In this document: piece after piece, positions 29,461 through 32,133 of the stretch
How the letters are laid out: every line of letters starts with the position of its first letter
How positions within the stretch are numbered: position 1 is the first letter of the stretch
DNA from: Chloroflexota bacterium
GTDB taxonomy: Bacteria > Chloroflexota > Dehalococcoidia > Lucifugimonadales > UBA2985
Reading direction: 5' to 3'
DNA: 45,347 nt
Assembly: GCA_028877205.1 (NCBI GenBank)
Contig: JAPPHY010000002.1
Span: 77,994-123,340, forward strand
Notes under the pieces: model-generated
What the model saw: only the letters and a program-made list of their open reading frames with translations
The model's database searches: none
Told to the model about the DNA's origin: nothing
Program-made: the position numbers and the translations under genes

Positions 29461-30147
29461 GTGATCGTCGTCATATCCTGTGCGGGAAGCAAGGCCCCGA
29501 ACGCCGGCAGGCTGCTGACACCGGACGGCAGGCCGGTCCAGTTCGTGGCGCACCCGGACCTGATGGAGGAGTCGCGAATCGAACCCAACTTGGTGTACGC
29601 GTCTCCAGACGCTCAGTCCGGCTTTGGCGCGACGTGGCGAGAGAGGCTGGCGGAATACAACGAAGAGCATCGGCGCACCGGCGGCAACCCCAGCGACCTT
29701 CTGCCCGCGTTTCAACTGTATAAGAACCGGATCTATCGCGATCTGGCCGGCAAGTTCGGACCGGAGAACGTCTTCATCCTGTCCGCCGGCTGGGGTCTCA
29801 TTCGGTCCGATTTCCTCACGCCGCAATACGACATAACTTTCTCCGGCCTCGCGCCGGACGCGGAAAGGCGGGATTACGGTCGTGACGCCGGCTTCAGAGA
29901 CTTCAACGCTTTGGCAGAGATCCGAGAGGCCGTAGAAGGCCCCGTACTCTGCATCGCTGGGAAAGACTACCTGCCAATCTTCGGCAATCTGTCTGAACCT
30001 ATCGATTGCGAGAAGCTGGTGATCTTCGCCACCAATGATCCCCCGGACGTGCCAGGATGCAGGCCCGTGAGATACACCGGCAAGGGCGGAACAAACTGGC
30101 AATACAGATGCGCCCGAGACCTCATTGACGGCAAGCTGGAGGTATAG
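29461..30147 (+). CDS. DUF6884/YaaA-like protein paired with the HEPN gene
   Basis: A 228-residue protein starting at GTG with GGAGGT at 29449-29454. The N-terminal ISCAGSK (5-11), LYKNRIYRDL (87-96) and FILSAGWGLIRSDFLTPQYD (105-124) segments are the landmarks of a loosely defined group (DUF6884 and the peroxide-stress YaaA group) that share 'SC-x-x-K' and 'SA-x-x-GL-x-x-PY' motifs and often occur in mobile or defence neighbourhoods. It may bind DNA or a nucleotide or nucleobase; I cannot assign a reaction. It ends 399 bases before cimA. Confidence 0.7.
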   Translation: MIVVISCAGSKAPNAGRLLTPDGRPVQFVAHPDLMEESRIEPNLVYASPDAQSGFGATWRERLAEYNEEHRRTGGNPSDLLPAFQLYKNRIYRDLAGKFGPENVFILSAGWGLIRSDFLTPQYDITFSGLAPDAERRDYGRDAGFRDFNALAEIREAVEGPVLCIAGKDYLPIFGNLSEPIDCEKLVIFATNDPPDVPGCRPVRYTGKGGTNWQYRCARDLIDGKLEV

Positions 30148-30254: not shown

Positions 30255-30264
30255 TCCCGCCAAC

Positions 30265-30530
30265 GGCAAAGACGGAGACGAGTAGGGGGGCATCCCTCGT
30301 TCAGCGAGCCTGGTACGGTGCAAGCAGGCATGCAGGGCCCTCCCGAATATCCCTCCTGAGCCGCCCGCCGAACGCTCCTGACAGGGGCTTGTAGACCGGG
30401 CCGGGGTCGCTCCCGTTAGCCAAGGCGCGGGCGTGTTGGCGCCTTGTCATAAAGAGTGCTCCGCTTTGTCGGGGAATTAGGGTGGTACCGCGGGTCTTTG
30501 TGTCCCGTCCCTTTTGGGGACGGGATTTTT
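30265..30530 (+). ncRNA. T-box riboswitch, isoleucine type
   Basis: A tRNA-sensing leader. Stem I contains the S-turn halves AGTA (30281-30284) and GAA (30345-30347), flanked above by GGGGGGC/GCCCTCC (30285-30291 with 30337-30343) and below by GGAG/CTCC (30274-30277 with 30353-30356). One base after GAA comes the specifier codon ATC (30349-30351), the same spacing as in the glyQS T-box, so the RNA should read tRNA-Ile. The antiterminator carries the conserved AGGGTGGTACCGCG (30479-30492); its TGGT bulge (30483-30486) pairs with a tRNA 3' end bearing discriminator A, as in tRNA-Ile. A strong terminator follows. Uncharged tRNA-Ile should permit read-through into cimA. Confidence 0.9.
30503..30530 (+). 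terminator. T-box intrinsic terminator
   Basis: TCCCGTCCC (30503-30511), loop TTTTG, GGGACGGGA (30517-30525) and TTTTT (30526-30530). It is mutually exclusive with the antiterminator that uses the T-box sequence just upstream. Confidence 0.9.
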
Positions 30531-30546
30531 CGTTATGGGGGAAAAC

Positions 30547-32133
<1,587 letters not shown>

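Follow-up and report, generated by a model that had tools for sequence, protein, structure and literature searches.

An isoleucine-specifying class I T-box leader precedes a citramalate synthase gene in a Chloroflexota genome

The first step of the citramalate route to isoleucine is catalyzed by the product of cimA, and the DNA just upstream of this gene in a Chloroflexota genome raises the question of whether, and in response to which tRNA, its expression is controlled by a T-box riboswitch. The window analyzed here is a stretch of 45,347 nucleotides. An earlier note on this DNA had placed an isoleucine T-box at 30265-30546, and had proposed a covariance-model search as a check. That search, carried out with Rfam, returned a full-length match to the T-box family RF00230 (model positions 1-219 of 219) at 30260-30515 on the forward strand, scoring 98.7 bits (gathering score 93) with an E-value of 1.2e-20. 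The T-box is where it had been placed, with coordinates correct to within a few bases. No other Rfam family matched within the window, and the core AGGGTGGTACCGCGGG was found there once, against a chance expectation of 0.05 at one mismatch. A simple scan for a sigma-70-like promoter found none. The small gene just upstream (29461-30147) matches DUF6884 only weakly, with E 9e-5, which is below the cut-off.

The elements of the leader are collected in Table 1. CCGUUA is named the F-box and placed in Stem IIA/B partly by reference to the T-box family.

Table 1. Features of the cimA leader and its target gene, in window coordinates.
Feature	Position	Strand	Basis or remark
T-box leader RNA	30260..30515	+	RF00230, full length
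Stem I, including specifier loop	30264..30363	+	Rfam alignment; pairs covary in 18 leaders
Stem I K-turn	near Stem I base	+	Rfam alignment
Distal double T-loop of Stem I	AGCGA 30303-30307; GGTGCAA ~30317-30323	+	Rfam alignment
AGTA, 5' half of Stem I S-turn	30281..30284	+	invariant in 18/18 leaders
GAA, 3' half of Stem I S-turn	30345..30347	+	invariant in 18/18 leaders
Spacer base T	30348	+	between GAA and specifier
Specifier AUC (Ile)	30349..30351	+	invariant in 18/18 cimA leaders; fits TBDB rule
Stem II with S-turn	30364..30400	+	sequence and Rfam alignment
Stem II S-turn halves	GAA 30370-30372 / GTA 30391-30393	+	GA and TA invariant in alignment
Stem IIA/B region	30402..30450	+	contains F-box
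F-box CCGUUA	30413-30418	+	CCGTTA invariant in 18/18
RRRNG motif GAGUG	30454-30458	+	sequence; motif per PMC7778990; Rfam alignment
Stem III	30459-30474	+	sequence; Rfam alignment
AA after Stem III	30475-30476	+	sequence; Rfam alignment
Antiterminator	30479..30512	+	Rfam alignment; forced fold; pairing in 98-100% of cells (18 leaders)
T-box bulge UGGU	30483-30486	+	inside antiterminator; Rfam alignment
Intrinsic terminator hairpin and U-run	30502..30530 (by scan 30502-30526 plus tail)	+	overlaps 3' half of antiterminator
cimA ribosome-binding GGGGG	30537-30541	+	5 bases upstream of ATG 30547
cimA, citramalate synthase	30547..32133	+	TIGR00977, 717.3 bits; Pfam HMGL-like, LeuA_dimer

The long Stem I with its distal double T-loop, together with a Stem II that carries an S-turn, assigns this leader to class I (tyrS-like) as defined in PMC10482949. 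The earlier note had likened its layout to that of glyQS, a comparison that does not hold. In the glyQS (class II) T-boxes, which are glycine specific, a single-stranded linker takes the place of the Stem II domain (PMC10482949). A glyQS-type architecture was rejected because the cimA leader possesses Stem II and the F-box CCGUUA, both missing from leaders of that type, as well as the specifier AUC.

Conservation was examined in an alignment of 18 cimA leaders, consisting of the window, 15 loci from genome contigs (genome_contigs) and two loci in genomes of the window's family. In this alignment 90.6% of the cells in Stem I and the antiterminator pair, a percentage that is biased in favor of the tested structure, which had itself been built from the window together with the Rfam consensus. 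Versions of the same structure slid along the alignment were only 40–55% paired. Changes on both sides of a pair are stronger evidence than the paired percentage, and 16 pairs in Stem I and the antiterminator show such changes; the mean for shuffled alignments was 10.0, and none of 500 shuffles reached 16. The covariation score for these elements was 0.301, compared with 0.131 after shuffling. Pairing is lower in helices 3 and 4 of Stem I, at 82% and 63%, which length differences among the leaders may explain. The terminator is paired in 96.9% of cells across the 18 leaders. These data bear on the possibility that the leader is a remnant that has decayed or lost its function. T-box losses do occur, in that none is detectable at some loci closely related to this cimA (for example L006 and L018), but every conserved element is intact in the window and compensating changes have kept the pairing among relatives. 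A remnant is thus very improbable, and the leader is an ordinary, well-formed and canonical T-box.

Which tRNA would such a leader read? The earlier note had derived an ATC specifier from the S-turn halves AGTA and GAA plus a single spacer base, and had asked for an alignment of related cimA leaders in which this position could be inspected. Both GAA and ATC are unvarying in all 18 leaders, and the alignment gives no support for TAT. All four bases occur at the position between them (30348), and position 30352, next after ATC, holds C in 13 leaders, A in four and T in one. Because ATC is invariant while both of its flanking bases vary, AUC can be fixed as the specifier, as read from the aligned sequences, and the overlapping TAT at 30348-30350 was rejected. 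That triplet would be available for a tyrosine reading one base upstream, and neighboring specifier frames are possible in principle according to TBDB (PMC7778990). However, a genuine T-box that reads tRNA-Tyr, or some other tRNA through another frame of the loop, is extremely unlikely, given the variation on either side of an unchanging ATC, a target gene that fits isoleucine and the AUC found also in the ileS leader of the same genome. For the isoleucine reading, the position of AUC agrees with the TBDB rule, which puts the specifier at a distance of 2–4 bases from the bulge's 3' end, and AUC is used by 99% of the Ile T-boxes in that database (PMC7778990). As a separate observation, a pyrimidine follows the specifier in 14 of the 18 cimA leaders where the Rfam consensus has A; the ileS, ilvB and trpS leaders of the same genome have A, G and G, respectively, at this place.

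The tRNA-Ile(GAU) of the genome has A73 as its discriminator and no encoded CCA, and matches the UGGU bulge, as the earlier note had expected; ARAGORN was run on the loci of the best 30 of 47 tRNA matches, so that a second tRNA-Ile(GAU) may exist. The anatomy of the leader, its conservation, its covariation and its tRNA match are all observed here. At one related locus (L023:1586-1880) the cimA T-box combines the specifier AUC with a UGGC bulge, yet the discriminator of the tRNA-Ile(GAU) found in that genome is A; this may reflect a C-A mismatch, an error in the sequence or decay.

The remaining T-boxes of the genome provide internal controls. There are four in total, preceding cimA (AUC), ileS (AUC), ilvB (GUA) and trpS (UGG, with a UGGC bulge), where the genes were named by NCBIfam models, trpS and ilvB scoring over their cut-offs and ileS being named from a partial sequence with TIGR00392 as its best model. 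Specifier and bulge track gene function: tRNA-Trp has discriminator G, matching the UGGC before trpS, and tRNA-Val has discriminator A, matching UGGU. In the three other genomes of the family that have T-boxes, specifiers and genes are matched in the same way.

We next consider how occupancy of the leader might be converted into gene expression. When the structures were forced, the antiterminator folded with -9.9 kcal/mol in the absence of tRNA and the terminator hairpin with -18.9 kcal/mol. The two share 30503-30512 and are mutually exclusive. The greater stability of the terminator is as expected of a switch that depends on tRNA to be held open. Plain minimum-energy folding of the entire leader yielded a long-range structure without several of the T-box elements, and this fold was not used as evidence. 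By analogy with the T-box family, switching would proceed as follows. When isoleucine is short, uncharged tRNA-Ile would contact the leader twice, its anticodon pairing with the AUC of Stem I and its ACCA end with the UGGU bulge. The antiterminator would thereby be held in place, and RNA polymerase would continue into cimA. The end of a charged tRNA-Ile could not properly enter the bulge; the more stable terminator would then form and transcription would end before the gene. Alternatively, the T-box might act on translation by sequestering the ribosome-binding site, which is only about 10 bases past the terminator hairpin. This is hardly to be expected in view of the U-run behind the hairpin, the position of the GGGGG site outside it, the classic alternative pairing of antiterminator and terminator kept in 18 leaders, and the distance from leader to gene, which differs widely among relatives. 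We conclude that cimA is very probably controlled at the level of transcription by a class I T-box riboswitch that is specific to tRNA-Ile(GAU).

The identity of the target rests on protein models. With TIGR00977, whose cut-off is 450 bits, the product of 30547-32133 reaches 717.3 bits; the best LeuA model gives only 291.3 bits, far below that model's cut-off of 517. A separate LeuA homologue, 31% identical to the CimA protein, is encoded on contig C14 of the genome. By its protein model the product is CimA, a citramalate synthase predicted to use pyruvate and acetyl-CoA, which sustains the earlier proposal that cimA is the target of an Ile T-box. The same proposal held that the specifier confirms CimA over LeuA; the identity stands, on the strength of TIGR00977 and of the separate LeuA paralogue, and the specifier fits this identity without proving it. 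The enzyme that this T-box very probably switches on is the first of the citramalate route to isoleucine. There may be more than this one route, since the genome also encodes an ilvA-type threonine dehydratase (TIGR01127, 480 bits, over the cut-off). None of the four T-boxes is located at this gene.

The Val (GUA) T-box precedes ilvB at L119 (G000:C14:124000-143526), at the head of a run of genes on contig C14 comprising ilvB, ilvN, ilvC, leuA, leuC and leuD, in which ilvB was named by TIGR00118 and the others were read as such by the appearance of their translations. This run (ilvB-ilvN ... ilvC-leuA-leuC-leuD) is broken by a DNA adenine methylase-like gene and an opposite-strand ORF. We slightly favor the view that in this class of Chloroflexota the branched-chain pathway is governed by two separate tRNA sensors, an Ile T-box on cimA alone and a Val T-box on ilvBN-ilvC-leuACD, with none found on ilvA, so that a shortage of isoleucine is met by way of citramalate and not of threonine.

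The arrangement is shared by relatives. A T-box lies upstream in 15 of the 25 nearest CimA loci (L005-L029), in every case with ATC. At the more distant loci (L030-L084) a search with the core motif, by which weaker leaders could be missed, found none; on some of these contigs little sequence precedes the gene. On a quick tree of CimA proteins the rows with a T-box cluster, requiring 7 changes compared with 14 in shuffles, and 15 of the 16 such rows fall inside a single supported group of 22 Chloroflexota rows, with several apparent losses. Judged by its nearest CimA relatives, the host is a Dehalococcoidia-like member of the Chloroflexota. At two loci the T-box core is found about 450 (L029:1342-2001) and 280 bases (L011:1483-2001) before the matched cimA start, with no clear gene in between. 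The earlier note had called a clear example in a Chloroflexota-like genome useful, T-box control being best known in Firmicutes. T-boxes are not rare in Chloroflexota: at least one is present in 131 of 148 sampled genomes of the window's class, and T-boxes of ileS, trpE and a trpB-like gene were reported in Dehalococcoides (Chloroflexi) in 2008 (PMC2494555).

As a whole, the cimA T-box extends known regulation, in that many related Chloroflexota have this switch ahead of the same gene, and the known working of T-boxes is unchanged by it. In the open-access literature searched no cimA T-box is named, and the pairing may already be catalogued. For Dehalococcoidia-like Chloroflexota, citramalate synthase becomes a well-supported target of Ile T-boxes, which helps in annotating CimA versus LeuA and points to citramalate as the isoleucine-responsive route in that group.

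Among known systems, the class I T-box typified by Bacillus subtilis tyrS (RF00230) shares with the cimA leader a long Stem I with K-turn, specifier internal loop and distal double T-loop, a Stem II with S-turn, the F-box, Stem III, an antiterminator with UGGN and a terminator. The cimA leaders differ from it in mostly having C after the specifier, where the consensus has A, in their target and in their Chloroflexota host. With class II glyQS they have in common the specifier loop and the Stem I distal motif. The ileS leader of the same genome (L003) has the same AUC specifier, UGGU bulge and architecture; in contrast to this and other ileS Ile T-boxes, including that of Dehalococcoides (PMC2494555), the cimA leader controls a biosynthetic enzyme and not a tRNA synthetase. 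The leuA T-box of Geobacter and Pelobacter (PMC2494555) likewise occurs outside the Firmicutes, and the gene that it precedes falls in the same enzyme superfamily, but there the enzyme is 2-isopropylmalate synthase, whereas here AUC is joined to citramalate synthase.
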